From assembly GCF_009915155.1 (NCBI RefSeq), contig NZ_JAABLM010000003.1, positions 62,001 through 126,000 on the forward strand: a DNA stretch of 64,000 nt. The letters are read 5' to 3'. The notes under the pieces were generated by a model, which saw only the letters and a program-made list of their open reading frames with translations, searched no databases and was not told the DNA's origin. This DNA is from Flavobacterium ichthyis. Its GTDB lineage: Bacteria; Bacteroidota; Bacteroidia; Flavobacteriales; Flavobacteriaceae. Position numbers and translations under genes: made by a program. Positions 8,092 to 13,660 of the stretch are shown piece by piece. The stretch's first letter is position 1. Each line of letters begins with the position of its first letter.

Positions 8092-8508
8092 ATGAAAATT
8101 GATTTAGAAAAAGACCCCAAAATTAAAGGCGGATTTTCCGTTCCTGACGATTACTTTTTGTCGTTAGAACGGCGCATTTTGGAACAAATTGACGGGCAAA
8201 AAGAGGTTCCGGTAATTTCATTTTTTCAAAAAAATAAAGCCAAAATTTTTGCCGTTGCCGCATCGCTTACCGCTGTTGCTTTGGCATTAACAGTTACATT
8301 TCAACAATTGGCTAATCCAGAAATTACTGATGTTACCATCGAAAATTATTTAGCCGAACAAAGCAATTTGAGCCAATACGAAATCATCGAACAGTTAAAT
8401 GACGCTGATATTTATGCGTTAGAAAATGAACTTTTGGCAATAGATGAATCTTCAGCAGAAAATTACCTTGCTGAAAGCAATTATATCGAAAATTATTTAT
8501 CCGAATAA
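8092..8508 (+). CDS. Small membrane protein, candidate anti-sigma partner
   Basis: A 138-residue protein with a cytoplasmic-type N-terminal segment (about 1-45, containing FSVPDDYFLSLERRI), one transmembrane helix (about 52-72) and an acidic C-terminal region rich in Glu, Asn and Tyr. It starts 30 bases after the sigma factor gene and precedes a small exported protein. The layout matches an anti-sigma factor, but I see no zinc-binding or known anti-sigma motif, so the role is inference from position and topology. Confidence 0.6.
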   Translation: MKIDLEKDPKIKGGFSVPDDYFLSLERRILEQIDGQKEVPVISFFQKNKAKIFAVAASLTAVALALTVTFQQLANPEITDVTIENYLAEQSNLSQYEIIEQLNDADIYALENELLAIDESSAENYLAESNYIENYLSE

Positions 8509-8512
8509 AATT

Positions 8513-8941
8513 ATGAAAAATTATATTACGTTTATATTGTTGATGTTAAACATAGTTTCTTTTGGGCAAAATGACAGCAAAAGAGAACAAATTAAGTCGT
8601 TAAAAACTGCTTTCATCACATCAGAATTATCGCTTACGTCTGATGAGTCGTCAAAATTTTGGCCTATTTACAATGCTTACGACAATGAGCAATTCGAACT
8701 TCGGCACAAAAAAATGCGACCTTTAGGAAAAAAATTGGCAAATGCTGACCAGCTTTCGGAAAAAGAAGCGCAAAATTTATTGAGCGAAATGCAGCAAATT
8801 GACGACGATTTGTACCAAAATAGAAAAAAATTGATGACAAATTTGAGGAATGTGATTAGCCCGCTAAAAATTTTAAAATTAAAAAAAGCAGAAGATGACT
8901 TTAACAGGAAACTGCTTCGTCAATATAAAAAGAAAGATTAA
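8513..8941 (+). CDS. Exported sensor-like protein of the ECF sigma operon
   Basis: A 142-residue protein starting at ATG 8513, four bases after the previous stop. It has a signal peptide (cleavage near SFGQ, residue 17) and a helical, charge-rich mature part with the pattern LTSDESSKFWPIYNAYDN...LRHKKMRPL, which resembles the Spy/CpxP-like sensor-of-ECF proteins annotated in flavobacteria. It probably acts in the periplasm and may tell the upstream membrane protein about envelope state. A long perfect hairpin follows at once. Confidence 0.6.
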   Translation: MKNYITFILLMLNIVSFGQNDSKREQIKSLKTAFITSELSLTSDESSKFWPIYNAYDNEQFELRHKKMRPLGKKLANADQLSEKEAQNLLSEMQQIDDDLYQNRKKLMTNLRNVISPLKILKLKKAEDDFNRKLLRQYKKKD

Positions 8942-8980
8942 AAAAGAAACCCGTTTCAAAGTTGAAACGGGTTTCTTTTT
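8941..8980. terminator. Bidirectional terminator, perfect 19-bp stem
   Basis: Arms 8941-8959 and 8962-8980 are perfect complements with a two-base loop, with A and T runs at the two ends. It serves both the sigma operon (+) and the nitroreductase gene (-), which converge here. Confidence 0.85.
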
Positions 8981-8982
8981 TT

Positions 8983-9582
8983 TTAGCGGATTTCTACAAT
9001 TGTTTCTCGACCAATTCTCGATTTTGGCCTAACATTAGGTTGGTTTGAATCATCATTATCTCTAGCTCCTAAAGCCACAGCTACTAAAGGCTGATAACCT
9101 TCTAAACCTAAAATTTGTTTGTATTTTTCGGGTTCAATCCCTTCCATTGGCGTAGAATCAATTTCCATGTTTGCGGTAGCACTTAATAATATTCCCAATG
9201 CAATGTAAACTTGACGCGACATCCAGATTTTAGCGTGTTCTTCGCCTAAAGGCTTGATAAAAGTTTTATAATAATTTAAAGCGCCTTCTGGTAAATTTTC
9301 GGCAACTTGTTTTTCGAATAGTTCTAAATCATCGATAACATTTAAGACTACCAAATGGCTTCCCTGATTGATTTTTTCTTTATTGAACATGGAAGCTTCG
9401 GCTAATGCTGCTTTTAAATTTTCATCGGAAATAATCACAAATTTCCAAGGTTGGCTGTTGATTGAAGATGGAGTTAAAAGCAGGATTTCTGCCAATTGAT
9501 CAATTTTTTCAGAGGGTATCTTCTTGGTTGCGTCATATTTTTTTGTGGTATATCGCAACTGCATTGATTGTAAAAAAGTCAT
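8983..9582 (-). CDS. NAD(P)H-dependent nitroreductase family oxidoreductase
   Basis: A 199-residue FMN-binding protein of the NfsB-like nitroreductase family. Visible features are the N-terminal RYTTKKYD segment (FMN phosphate binding), TPSSINSQPWKF near residue 36-48, and GIEPEKYKQILGLEGYQPLVAVALG near the C-terminus. Such enzymes reduce nitroaromatics, quinones or other electrophiles with NAD(P)H in the cytosol. It is divergent from an HxlR regulator with overlapping promoters, so its expression is very probably controlled by that protein. Confidence 0.88.
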   Translation of the reverse strand: MTFLQSMQLRYTTKKYDATKKIPSEKIDQLAEILLLTPSSINSQPWKFVIISDENLKAALAEASMFNKEKINQGSHLVVLNVIDDLELFEKQVAENLPEGALNYYKTFIKPLGEEHAKIWMSRQVYIALGILLSATANMEIDSTPMEGIEPEKYKQILGLEGYQPLVAVALGARDNDDSNQPNVRPKSRIGRETIVEIR

Positions 9583-9604
9583 TTTTTTAAAGTAATTTTA
9601 TTAA

Positions 9605-9674
9605 ACTATCATTTTTATAGTTGCAAAAGTAAGTATAGTTATTTACATTTGCAATAACGGTTAAAAATGATAGT
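9605..9674. promoter_or_regulatory. Operator pair and overlapping divergent promoters
   Basis: A perfect 12-base inverted repeat, actatcattttt (9605-9616) and aaaaatgatagt (9663-9674), flanks two face-to-face promoters. Forward: TTG 9621-9623, 20 bases, TACATTTG 9644-9651, for the HxlR gene. Reverse: TTG 9654-9652, 20 bases, TACTTTTG 9631-9624, for the nitroreductase. A dimeric regulator bound at these arms would cover both promoters. Confidence 0.7.
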
Positions 9675-9677
9675 ACA

Positions 9678-10034
9678 ATGTTTACAATAGATGATAAAAA
9701 TTTTCCATGTAGTACGAGCGTGACTATGCGATTTATTGGCGGTAAGTGGAAAGCCGTTATTTTAATACATTTGGCAAAAAAGACTCAAAGGTACAGCGAA
9801 TTGCGAAAGATGATTCCTACTATTACAGAACGAACTTTGAGTTTACAACTGAAACAATTGGAAGAAGATGGTTTAATTTTACGCCAAGTTTTTACAGAAA
9901 AACCACCATTGACGGTAGATTATAGTTTGACCGATTTTGGAAAATCATTGATCCCGGTTTTAAAAAGTATTGCCGAATGGGGGATTTTGGCACAAACTCA
10001 TTCTAATAAAATAAAAGAACTTCGAAGTAGTTAA
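9678..10034 (+). CDS. HxlR (DUF24) family transcriptional regulator
   Basis: A 118-residue winged-helix regulator. The core runs from about residue 17 (MRFIGGKWKAVILIHL) through RTLSLQLKQLEEDGLI (recognition helix) to YSLTDFGKSL. Its only cysteine is Cys11, in the N-terminal position that is redox- or electrophile-active in family members such as YodB, CatR and HypR of Bacillus subtilis. It is divergent from a nitroreductase gene, a pairing reminiscent of HypR and its nitroreductase target. A thiol-based switch responding to electrophiles or quinones is therefore a reasonable inference. Confidence 0.88.
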   Translation: MFTIDDKNFPCSTSVTMRFIGGKWKAVILIHLAKKTQRYSELRKMIPTITERTLSLQLKQLEEDGLILRQVFTEKPPLTVDYSLTDFGKSLIPVLKSIAEWGILAQTHSNKIKELRSS

Positions 10035-10078
10035 ATGTGTAGCAGTTGAATTAACTTTGTCCTATAAAATAAAAATAA

Positions 10079-10468
10079 ATGTTTACTATTCTACAAATTA
10101 AAGACGCACATTCAAAGGTTAAATCCGGGGCAGATTTTCCGGCATACGTTCGGGAAATAAAAAATTTGGGCGTTACGGGTTACCAATATTTTGTTACTGA
10201 TGGTCGTTCGGAATATTTTGGAACAAATGATTATCAGCAAGTTGGGGAAGCAAAATATGATGTGCTAAAAATTTCGGAAATCACTAATTCTGAACAATTT
10301 AAAGCAGATTTAAAATTACATCAACAAGGTAATACTGATTTCATCACGTTTTGTAATGATTGTGCAAAGTCAGGTATTGAAAAATGGGTACTTGACTTAA
10401 ACGAAATGACTTGCACTTATTTTGACTCGCAAAAAAATACTATTTTAGTAGAAAATATTCCACAGTAA
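10079..10468 (+). CDS. DUF1398 family protein
   Basis: A 129-residue cytosolic protein matching the DUF1398 (YbcV-like) family: AHSKVKSGADFPAYVREIK at the N-terminus, GVTGYQYFVTDGRSEYFG in the middle, and SGIEKWVLDLNEMTCTYFD near the end. The family has no established function. It starts 45 bases after the HxlR gene in the same direction and may be on the same transcript. No signal peptide or membrane segment is present. Confidence 0.75.
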   Translation: MFTILQIKDAHSKVKSGADFPAYVREIKNLGVTGYQYFVTDGRSEYFGTNDYQQVGEAKYDVLKISEITNSEQFKADLKLHQQGNTDFITFCNDCAKSGIEKWVLDLNEMTCTYFDSQKNTILVENIPQ

Positions 10469-10483
10469 ATTTATCTTTTGCCC

Positions 10484-11041
10484 ATGAAAAAACAACTTTC
10501 TTCATCAGAAACCAATGATTTGTTAGCTGTTTTATACGAAAGATTTCAGGAAAATATGGATCGTCATCCTAGAATAAATTGGGATGATATTGTTACAAAA
10601 TTGAAAGCAAATCCTGAAAAATTATGGTCATTATTTCAAATGGAAATTTCGGGAGGCGAACCAGATTTAGTGGTTTTAGATGCTAACGCAAATGATTATT
10701 TTTTTGTGGATTGTTCCGCCGAAACTCCAAAAAATAGAAGAAGTTGTTGTTTTGACCAAAAAGCACTCGACGGGAGAAAACTCAATAAGCCAGCCACAAA
10801 TGCGATGGAAATGGCGAAGCAAATGGGAATTGAAATTTTAGATGAAGAGCAATATCGAATACTTCAAAATTTAGGGAAATTTGATTTAAAAACCTCAAGC
10901 TGGATTGCCACTCCTGAAAATATAAGAAAATTAGGTGGTGCCCTTTTCTGTGACAGGCGTTATGATTCAGTTTTTACGTACCACAACGGTGCAGATTCTT
11001 ATTATGCTGCACGAGGTTTTAGAGGCATTCTAAAAATATAA
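10484..11041 (+). CDS. DUF4256 family protein
   Basis: A 185-residue protein of the DUF4256 family, recognised from RFQENMDRHPRINW, MEISGGEPDLV, FVDCSAETPKNRRS and the C-terminal YHNGADSYYAARGFRG. The function is not established. The ATG at 10484 is preferred to a TTG six bases upstream. It follows the DUF1398 gene by 16 bases, probably in one operon. A 201-base gap follows, ending in the promoter of the TonB receptor gene. Confidence 0.78.
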   Translation: MKKQLSSSETNDLLAVLYERFQENMDRHPRINWDDIVTKLKANPEKLWSLFQMEISGGEPDLVVLDANANDYFFVDCSAETPKNRRSCCFDQKALDGRKLNKPATNAMEMAKQMGIEILDEEQYRILQNLGKFDLKTSSWIATPENIRKLGGALFCDRRYDSVFTYHNGADSYYAARGFRGILKI

Positions 11042-11172
11042 TTTAATTTAGACTATTTTTAAATAGTTTTCTGTTTTTCGAGACTTAGTTTTAAAATTTT
11101 AAATTAAAACTTTAAAAATTCAATTGAATTCATAAATCGCATTTTTTAATTTATATTTATTCTAAATAAACT

Positions 11173-11202
11173 TTGACTGAATTTGGTTTAACAATACCTT
11201 TG
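11173..11202 (+). promoter_or_regulatory. Promoter of the TonB receptor operon
   Basis: TTG at 11173-11175, a 19-base spacer, TACCTTTG at 11195-11202: a full consensus match 40 bases before the ATG at 11243. I see no Fur-box-like palindrome that I could defend. Confidence 0.6.
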
Positions 11203-11242
11203 CAAAAAAAAACAAAACCCTTGTTAAACCAATTTATCTCAA

Positions 11243-13660
11243 ATGAGTAAGCAATTTAAATTAGTACTAATCGCAGTCTTTTATAGTGTTATTCTTACAG
11301 CCCAAAATACGGGTACAGTTATTGGAAAAATTACTGATTCCGAAAATTTTCCTCTCGAAAAAGTTCAAGTTACTTTAATTTCGCCCAAGTACGTTACGCA
11401 AACGAACGCTAATGGCGAATTTGAGTTCAAAAATATTACTACTGGAAACTACTTTATACGCTTTTCCATCTTAGGGTATAAATCTAAAGAAGTTAGTATC
11501 AGCGTATTTGAAAATCAAACTACGGAAATCCCAACCGAAAAACTGCTTTCAAACAGCGAACAATTAAACGAAATTTTTATTGAAACGTATTATAACAGAT
11601 ACACAAAAACAGAAAGTGAATATGTTTCTAGAATGCCGATAAAGAATTTAGAAAATGCATCGGTTTATAATGTTGTAACTAAAGAATTGATGAAAGATCA
11701 ATTAATTACAAGTCAAGATGAAGCATTAAAAAATGTTCCGGGATTGTATCAAATTTGGGCAGCAACAGGAAGAACAGGAGACGGCGGATCTTTATTTGCT
11801 TCGCGAGGATTCGTCACTCAAAGTTTATTGAGAAACGGAATAGCAGGAAAAATTACCAATAATGTTGATGCCTCAAATTTAGAAAGGTTAGAAGCCATTA
11901 AAGGCCCGTCTGCCACACTTTTTGGAAGTCTTTTAACTTCTTATGGTGGATTAATAAACCGCGTTACTAAAAAACCTCACGAAAATTTTGGTGGAGAAAT
12001 TTCATATCAAGCGGGAAGCTACGGGTTAAACCGCATTACTGCCGATGTAAACACAGCGTTGAATAGTGATCAAACAGCGTTGCTTCGCGTAAATGGCGCA
12101 TATAATAACAGTAATACATTTCAAGATTTTGGAAAAACAAGAAGTTTTTTTGTCGCACCTTCTTTTATATATAAAGTAAACGACAGATTTACCTTATCAA
12201 TTGATGCTGAACTTTCAAATGTAGATGCCTCATCAATGCCATTGGTTTATTTGCATTGGGGACAAACTCCAAGTACTTTAGGTCTTTCAAATGCAAGCGA
12301 AATTCAAATGGATTGGAAACGTTCATTTACTGGTGGAGAATTTATGATGAATACTAAAACCGCTAATGTTTTTGCGCAAGCAGATTATATAATAAACGAT
12401 AATTGGAAATCGAGCACGGTTTTTAGTACCAGTTCGAATCAATCTTTTGGTCCACAAACATGGTTTTATTTATTGCCGAATAATACCATGGAAAGAAATG
12501 TTTGGAATATCGATGGAAGAGACAACATTGTAGAATTTCAACAAAATTTTAATGGCGAATTTAATGTCCTTGGTTTAAAAAACAGGTTTCTTGCAGGAGG
12601 AGATATTTATAGATTAGAAACCAAAGCGGCAATTGGATATTTACCTACTTTTTGGACATTTGACACCATCAACTATTCTGGTGAGGTACCTAATTATTAT
12701 GATTTTAACCCTACAAATGCCGAAGCACTTTTCGCTCAAGGAACCCAAGCCATCACTCACAGTTCTTTAACAACTTATAGTGCTTATTTGGCCGATGTTA
12801 TTAATGTAACAGAAAATATTTTGCTTTCGGCGGCATTGCGCTTTGATCATTTTGAAAACCATGGTATTTATAATCCAACTAATAATACTACGAGTGGAGC
12901 ATTTTCACAAAATGCGCTTTCTCCAAAATTTGGGGCTGTAATCCAAGTATTAAAAGATCAAATTTCATTATTTGGAAATTACCAAAACAGTTTTAAAAAT
13001 GTAATGAATACAAATCCAGGAGCTACTGAAACTTTTAAACCCGAAACAGCAAACCAGTTTGAAGCAGGTGTAAAAATTAATGCATTTAACAACCGTTTGA
13101 GTGCCTCGTTAAGTTATTATAACATCAACGTTGAAAATATTGTTCGCGCTTCAACAGCTCCAGGAATTAACGTTCAAGATGGCAATCAAACCAGCAAAGG
13201 TTTTGAAGCAGAAATAACTTCTAACCCAATTCCTGGATTAAACTTTATTTTTGGTTTTGCACACAACAACAGCAAATTGAACAAGGTAAACGACCAAAGA
13301 GTTCAAGGACTTCGACCAGAAACTGCAGGACCCGAAAATATGATTAATTATTGGGTAAACTACAGTTTACAAGATACATCACTAAGAGGTTTAGGATTTG
13401 GATTTGGCGGAAATTACGGCAGTAAAAATTATGTTTATAACCAAAATCCTTCGGCCGATGGAAATCCTGCAAATGTAGAAACCTATTATTTACCTGAATA
13501 TTTTGTAATGAATGCAGCACTTTATTATGACCAGCCAAAATACAGATTTTCATTTAAAGTAAATAACTTAACAGATGAATTATATTTCAATGGCGGTTAT
13601 ACTACTACTAACGTACAGGCTCCAAGAACATTTATGGGAAGCGTGGCTTACAAATTTTAA
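11243..13660 (+). CDS. TonB-dependent siderophore receptor
   Basis: An 805-residue outer-membrane receptor. A signal peptide (about 1-20) is followed by a carboxypeptidase-like regulatory domain at about 23-100 (GTVIGKITDSENFPLEKVQV), a plug domain at about 125-240 (ASRGFVTQSLLRNGI, ERLEAIKGPSATLFG) and a beta-barrel ending in Phe (FMGSVAYKF). The RGF and ERIEVIKGP-type plug motifs are those of FhuA-like ferric siderophore receptors. It takes up a ferric chelate using TonB energy. Its stop overlaps the start of the PepSY membrane protein gene, consistent with an iron-acquisition operon. Confidence 0.9.
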   Translation: MSKQFKLVLIAVFYSVILTAQNTGTVIGKITDSENFPLEKVQVTLISPKYVTQTNANGEFEFKNITTGNYFIRFSILGYKSKEVSISVFENQTTEIPTEKLLSNSEQLNEIFIETYYNRYTKTESEYVSRMPIKNLENASVYNVVTKELMKDQLITSQDEALKNVPGLYQIWAATGRTGDGGSLFASRGFVTQSLLRNGIAGKITNNVDASNLERLEAIKGPSATLFGSLLTSYGGLINRVTKKPHENFGGEISYQAGSYGLNRITADVNTALNSDQTALLRVNGAYNNSNTFQDFGKTRSFFVAPSFIYKVNDRFTLSIDAELSNVDASSMPLVYLHWGQTPSTLGLSNASEIQMDWKRSFTGGEFMMNTKTANVFAQADYIINDNWKSSTVFSTSSNQSFGPQTWFYLLPNNTMERNVWNIDGRDNIVEFQQNFNGEFNVLGLKNRFLAGGDIYRLETKAAIGYLPTFWTFDTINYSGEVPNYYDFNPTNAEALFAQGTQAITHSSLTTYSAYLADVINVTENILLSAALRFDHFENHGIYNPTNNTTSGAFSQNALSPKFGAVIQVLKDQISLFGNYQNSFKNVMNTNPGATETFKPETANQFEAGVKINAFNNRLSASLSYYNINVENIVRASTAPGINVQDGNQTSKGFEAEITSNPIPGLNFIFGFAHNNSKLNKVNDQRVQGLRPETAGPENMINYWVNYSLQDTSLRGLGFGFGGNYGSKNYVYNQNPSADGNPANVETYYLPEYFVMNAALYYDQPKYRFSFKVNNLTDELYFNGGYTTTNVQAPRTFMGSVAYKF

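Follow-up and report, generated by a model that had tools for sequence, protein, structure and literature searches.

How does a single short intergenic region serve two genes that are read away from one another? The window analyzed here is a stretch of 64,000 nucleotides from Flavobacterium ichthyis, numbered from its first base, in which 95 bases separate a minus-strand gene for a nitroreductase-family enzyme (8983–9582; 199 aa; PF00881, E 8.2e-21) from a plus-strand gene for an HxlR/DUF24 regulator (9678–10034; 118 aa with a cysteine at position 11; PF01638, E 1.1e-28, 99.3 bits against a curated cut-off of 20.8). Both Pfam matches agree with a sequence-only reading of this DNA, which had named the genes an HxlR-type regulator and a nitroreductase, and the best PDB sequence matches of the enzyme are oxygen-insensitive NAD(P)H nitroreductases and NAD(P)H:FMN oxidoreductases. 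The answer that we consider probable is that HxlR represses both genes from both start sites, and that modification of Cys11 by an electrophile lifts this repression.

Several further features surround the pair. Genes with DUF1398 and DUF4256 domains lie downstream of hxlR on the same strand (10079–11041). A 19-bp stem, perfect and accompanied by an A-run and a T-run, occupies 8940–8981, between the nitroreductase gene and a plus-strand gene (8444–8941) that converge there, and is likely a two-way terminator. An identical 20-base sequence, CAAATTTAATTGTAAATTTG, occurs on either strand at five places in the same genome, 83–84 bases into three contigs (C3:83–102, C7:84–103, C9:84–103) and at two others (C2:253802–253821, C6:199345–199364), and is perhaps a repeat breaking the assembly.

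The relatives came from two sources: 150 genomes belonging to the window's genus, 76 of which gave a match at E 1e-15, and a genome contig set (best 80 of 327). This gave close HxlR relatives at 102 loci (L006–L027 and L036–L115; L006 is the window's own copy, and L001 was dropped as its duplicate). A divergent nitroreductase gene adjoins hxlR in 90 of the 102 and is replaced in 12; L013 and L014, where the nitroreductase match is not adjacent, are outside the 90, and L103, which has no nitroreductase match, was read separately. Eighty-nine intergenic regions, the window's included, were aligned and contain 69 distinct cores, one locus being left out (L019, whose 296-nt intergenic region holds two copies). 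The counts are not independent, since 73 of the 89 rows come from Chryseobacterium or near it; the other 16 are the window, nine genomes of its genus, Parapedobacter, two Sphingobacterium, Maribacter, Pedobacter and one Bacteroidetes metagenome-assembled genome. Throughout the 89 aligned regions (69 distinct), the 70-bp core at 9605–9674 carries no insertion or deletion. The strong evidence for the predicted element is comparative, and conservation decides over chance statistics.

Predicted promoters on a common 34 bases

The predicted promoter toward hxlR (plus strand, 9621–9651) reads TTG-N20-TACATTTG, with TTG at 9621–9623 and TACATTTG at 9644–9651, and that toward the nitroreductase gene (minus strand, 9624–9654) reads TTG-N20-TACTTTTG, with TTG as the complement of 9654–9652 and TACTTTTG as the complement of 9631–9624. 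The 34 bases 9621–9654 are common to both, as had been proposed earlier in describing fully overlapping divergent promoters, and each TTG abuts the opposite −7 element to form a dyad. In F. johnsoniae, as described in PMC6847099, the −7 consensus is TANNTTTG, revised to TAHHTTTG, and the full −33 element is TTTG, the latter being much less evident in general. Both −7 elements in the window fit TANNTTTG and the revised form, at the 20-base spacing noted in the sequence-only reading, and both −33 elements are TTG, short of the full TTTG. The spacing from the −7 element to the start is 4–5 nt in F. johnsoniae according to the same source. The predicted starts in the window would lie at about 9656/9657 for hxlR (plus strand) and about 9618/9619 for the nitroreductase gene (minus strand), 37–39 bp apart, and given the full overlap of the promoters, polymerase binding in the two directions is expected to be mutually exclusive.

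An opposed pair of TTG-N20-TAnnTTTG promoters at most 10 bases off full overlap was found once in the window and never in 200 first-order Markov sequences. Across the 89 aligned regions, the nitroreductase-ward promoter TTG-N20-TAnnTTTG is present in every row, and its −7 element takes the revised form TAHHTTTG in only 59, which counts against the preferred reading. The hxlR-ward −7 element matches TAnnTTTG in 84 rows (11 of the 16 outside Chryseobacterium) and is unmatched in five, and its −33 element is TTG in 34 rows and TTA in 50. Over the window's own genome as a whole, CAAAnnTA-N12-TAnnTTTG dyads number two against one in a control, and with spacers of 0–30 the numbers are 80 against 43, a comparison uncorrected for base composition in which the places are listed in part. 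One such N12 dyad was also read by eye upstream of a more distant HxlR gene (L030), without ACTAT/ATAGT operators.

This arrangement was compared with the bidirectional promoters of E. coli, which in PMC12825309 are defined by a shared −10 element with starts mostly 18, also 10 or 23, bp apart. The promoter pair here falls outside that definition and has two separate −7 elements 12 bp apart. According to the same paper, PacrA/acrR is a pseudo-symmetric DNA on which one polymerase may face either direction and on both directions of which the autorepressor AcrR acts. The 34-bp dyad resembles it in symmetric promoter DNA and in the autorepression of both directions proposed here, and would differ from the system as described there in that its −7 elements are separate and each adjoins the −33 element of the other promoter, its predicted starts are 37–39 bp apart, and its putative operators lie at both starts.

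Half-site pairs and the long inverted repeat

The 70-bp core is bounded by a perfect inverted repeat of 13 bp (9605–9617/9662–9674), which sits within an 18-nt repeat of 89% identity (9600–9617/9662–9679). The earlier observation of a perfect 12-bp repeat flanking the promoters was thus right as to its presence and perfection and one base short as to its length. Taken alone, the repeat is weak evidence: nine repeats in the window are perfect over at least 12 bp (spacer 3–60), where 200 first-order Markov sequences hold 1.1 on average. Among the 89 aligned regions, the 13-bp repeat stays perfect in six, mismatches over 12 bp ranging from 0 to 5, and positions 9610, 9611 and 9617 do not covary with 9669, 9668 and 9662 over the 89 rows. 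This gives no support to the 12-bp repeat as the binding unit, and the 13-bp repeat was rejected as an operator. A reading of the repeat as one long operator or as a hairpin, for which its perfection in the window would speak, is accordingly very improbable. For a hairpin, moreover, the arms fall in the predicted leaders of different divergent transcripts so that no RNA would hold both, and the interval 8900–11300 contains no Rfam match at gathering score. A small upstream open reading frame from the ATG at 9667 was also ruled out, as T9668 is G in 25 of the 89 rows.

What is conserved within the core is instead two pairs of half-sites, ACTAT/ATAGT and ACGGT/ATAGT, together with a third half-site at the center. 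Predicted operator site I, ACTAT-N7-ATAGT (9605–9621), lies over the predicted nitroreductase start, at about −3 to +14. Its halves are perfectly complementary in 82 of the 89 rows and have one mismatch in the remaining seven; 10 of the 16 rows outside Chryseobacterium are complementary. Predicted site II, ACGGT-N8-ATAGT (9657–9674), lies over the predicted hxlR start, at about +1 to +18, and retains ACGGT in 84 rows and ATAGT in 88. It is imperfect, its halves differing at two positions in 84 rows and at three in five. The centers of the two sites, 9613 and 9665.5, are 52.5 bp apart, equal to five turns of 10.5 bp. A putative third half-site, ATAGT on the plus strand (9635–9639), marks the middle of the promoter dyad; 18 bp separate it from the second half of site I. 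There, G9638 is present in 89 of 89 rows and T9639 in 88; the full ATAGT is found in 12 of the 16 rows outside Chryseobacterium and in none of the other 73, 62 of which have TAAGT. Exact ACTAT-N7-ATAGT occurs at four places in the window's own genome, compared with five for a backwards control, and the three other copies lie inside stop-to-stop open frames; a search of that genome for a wider regulon gave no further exact match outside open frames.

As the inverted repeat places the same 13 nt in both predicted leaders, these motifs could also act in RNA, with UAAAAAUGAUAGU near the start of each leader providing common translational or RNA-binding control. We consider this slightly more improbable even than a long operator or hairpin: conservation extends to a portion of site I that lies upstream of where the nitroreductase transcript is predicted to begin, the third half-site falls within the promoter and would be in neither predicted transcript, and site I and the third half-site recur together as a unit in two loci, L019 and L152. 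In each of these, the triple unit ACTAT-N7-ATAGY-N13-ATAGT is found twice in a long intergenic region (from about 1267 and 1402 in L019, and from about 1501 and 1637 in L152), with the second copy nearer hxlR.

Predicted operators beside other partner genes

Thirteen loci were used for comparison, namely the 12 with a neighbor other than a nitroreductase and L019, in which the nitroreductase is more distant and the spacer longer. Pfam scans of the partners in 10 of the 13 gave MRJP in L013 and L014, PEBP in L017, nitroreductase in L019, NmrA in L020, no family in L021, Flavodoxin_2 in L022, L023 and L026, and a metallo-beta-lactamase fold in L103; by eye, the partners of L024, L025 and L027 resemble that of L023. 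Flavodoxin-fold enzymes (PF02525) thus make up three of the nine non-nitroreductase partners scanned, a fold known from quinone reductases. In 12 of the 13 loci, site I departs from ACTAT/ATAGT by no more than one mismatch. The weak site I of L020, with two mismatches, and the degraded site II of L026 weigh against the preferred reading. In eight of the 13, the first half of site II is ACTAT instead of ACGGT. This switch at one identical place suggests that ACGGT-N8-ATAGT is probably a second operator rather than a leader element. The predicted operators persist beside MRJP, PEBP, flavodoxin-fold and metallo-beta-lactamase-fold partners and beside one that Pfam does not assign; on the sequence evidence they belong to the regulator and travel with hxlR.

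The nitroreductase-ward −7 element is likewise kept in 12 of the 13 loci, all except L024. The hxlR-ward −7 element is kept in five and lost in eight (L019, L020, L021, L023, L024, L025, L026 and L027), which, together with the five unmatched rows in the alignment, indicates that two-way use is not universal. In these eight loci, hxlR may start elsewhere.

A composite pattern was sought in 395 Bacteroidia genomes and matched in nine, the window's own included, while a control matched in none. Spacing is identical in all nine, under a pattern that allowed longer and not shorter gaps. An HxlR gene lies near the match in each of the nine (about 460 bases away in L153), and a nitroreductase in eight, by eye except for the window's own; in L160, the neighbor read by eye is another NADP-type reductase. 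A loose site II pattern over the 395 genomes was discarded as mostly noise. ACTAT-N5–9-ATAGT was absent from the 250 bases upstream in all 11 of the more distantly related HxlR loci that served as a negative control, of which three come from the same genome (L005 was excluded from this control for want of a tblastn match with the window HxlR). Position 11 is Cys in 10 of these proteins and Asn in one.

The putative sensor protein and its proposed mode of control

Cys11 is present in all 102 close relatives, both the 90 linked to a nitroreductase and the 12 with other partners. The window HxlR was previously described as a single-Cys protein, and it does have Cys11 alone, followed by Ser12, but only 6 of the 90 nitroreductase-linked relatives share this condition. 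In 70 of those 90, Cys11 and Cys12 are adjacent, possibly as a vicinal dithiol. An AlphaFold model of the window HxlR, built from a 31-sequence alignment (mean pLDDT 93.5), places Cys11 directly before helix 12–20, reminiscent of the N-terminal cysteine at helix 1 in regulators of the YodB/QsrR type. The top PDB match of the model is the HxlR-DNA structure 7bzg (Z 16.3, rmsd 1.6 over 107 residues), followed by HypR (4a5n, Z 16.1), YodB (5hs7, Z 14.2) and QsrR-DNA (4hqe, Z 13.9), of which 7bzg and 4a5n are tied within 1 Z with others.

These matches bear on whether HxlR might be an activator, the modified protein binding and recruiting polymerase to the nitroreductase promoter. The two nearest structures, BsHxlR and HypR, are both described as activators, which is a further point against our preferred reading: BsHxlR activates the hxlAB promoter, and HypR of B. 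subtilis, a DUF24 redox regulator activated by thiol modification, controls the flavin reductase HypO. BsHxlR is the top match in fold (43% identity) and in PDB sequence, with Cys11 at the same position. According to PMC7835342, Lys13 is needed with Cys11 for its intrahelical formaldehyde crosslink; the window protein has Thr13, as do all 90 nitroreductase-linked relatives, so that a Cys11–Lys13 formaldehyde bridge is unlikely as the switch, and its divergent neighbor is a nitroreductase. HypR is comparable as a DUF24 redox regulator paired with a flavin reductase, but relies on a further Cys from the opposite subunit, whereas the window protein has only one. Both putative operators, furthermore, lie downstream of the −7 elements and over the predicted starts, where a bound dimer should stop polymerase, which favors repression of both genes. 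From this position we infer repression in both directions, and we regard activation as unlikely.

YodB of B. subtilis and QsrR of S. aureus provide the closer analogy of function; as they are described, they rely on an N-terminal cysteine to control quinone reductases and the nitroreductase YodC, which fits the usual nitroreductase partner here. In common with the window protein are the family, the modeled fold, an N-terminal Cys (the reactive Cys6 at a helix start in YodB) and, if HxlR does control its neighbor, targets of the nitroreductase or quinone reductase kind, at 28% (YodB) and 27% (QsrR) identity in structural alignments. They differ in controlling several genes, compared with the divergent pair on one shared promoter proposed here, and YodB has a second reactive cysteine, Cys101, whereas the window protein, with one, does not fit an intersubunit disulfide. 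That the effector is an electrophile is a guess by analogy with this family; the sequence-only idea of a compact electrophile or quinone sensor is supported in part, by the HxlR family, by Cys11 and by the nitroreductase partner. The same repressor architecture might respond to another signal, be it a ligand, a persulfide or a metal, and in many relatives might do so by way of the adjacent Cys11 and Cys12. The varied partners (MRJP, PEBP, metallo-beta-lactamase fold, NmrA) and the frequency of that cysteine pair are consistent with such a signal, whereas the predominance of nitroreductase neighbors, the flavodoxin-fold enzymes among the other partners and the lone Cys11 of the window protein speak against it; we give it about one chance in four.

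The preferred reading, repression of both genes relieved by an electrophile, would then operate as follows. One 34-bp dyad-symmetric promoter could be read either way, with room for one polymerase at a time. HxlR dimers on ACTAT-N7-ATAGT at the nitroreductase start and on ACGGT-N8-ATAGT at the hxlR start would block both directions, the third half-site in mid-promoter perhaps helping HxlR to bind. An electrophile (quinone, diamide-like or nitroaromatic) would modify Cys11 at the start of helix 1, and HxlR would leave the DNA. The nitroreductase then made would presumably reduce the compound, and HxlR, made as well, would restore repression.

A more specific proposal, which we hold only tentatively and about as doubtful as a different signal, is a Bacteroidota module in which HxlR dimers on the two start sites, at a spacing of five helical turns, lock a dyad promoter from its two ends; each −33 element of this promoter abuts the opposite −7, and the third half-site lies between the dimers. 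Such dimers might bind jointly and shut the promoter as a single unit; the set of operators would move with the regulator between partners, the inner half of site II changing with the HxlR clade and the hxlR-ward promoter often being lost on a change of partner. The frequent loss of the hxlR-ward −7 element in the comparison loci lowered the probability that we assign to it.

Circuits of this type are already known; what is new is the arrangement, and the difference is modest. The circuit would work like the YodB/QsrR control of detoxifying reductases and like the autorepressed PacrA/acrR. Among the literature matches listed, no title or abstract opening describes the element, most subscription papers being outside the coverage; the comparisons draw on PMC7835342, PMC8063818, PMC6847099, PMC9723704, PMC6943732, PMC6212828, PMC6798810 and PMC12825309.

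If the preferred reading is true, one HxlR clade of Bacteroidota would gain a predicted operator, and the locus would present a bidirectional promoter whose geometry is unlike those of E. coli. Divergent overlapping promoters, two operators and autoregulation are also features of tetR/tetA in Tn10, which differs in its TetR-family regulator and in its promoters and operators. Operators of related Bacillus regulators are ACTAT/ATAGT-like. Regulators of Bacteroidota are less studied, and the element is small enough for the whole to be tested in one plasmid. The partner genes of the clade could then, if the reading is true, be taken as targets of a single type of sensor.
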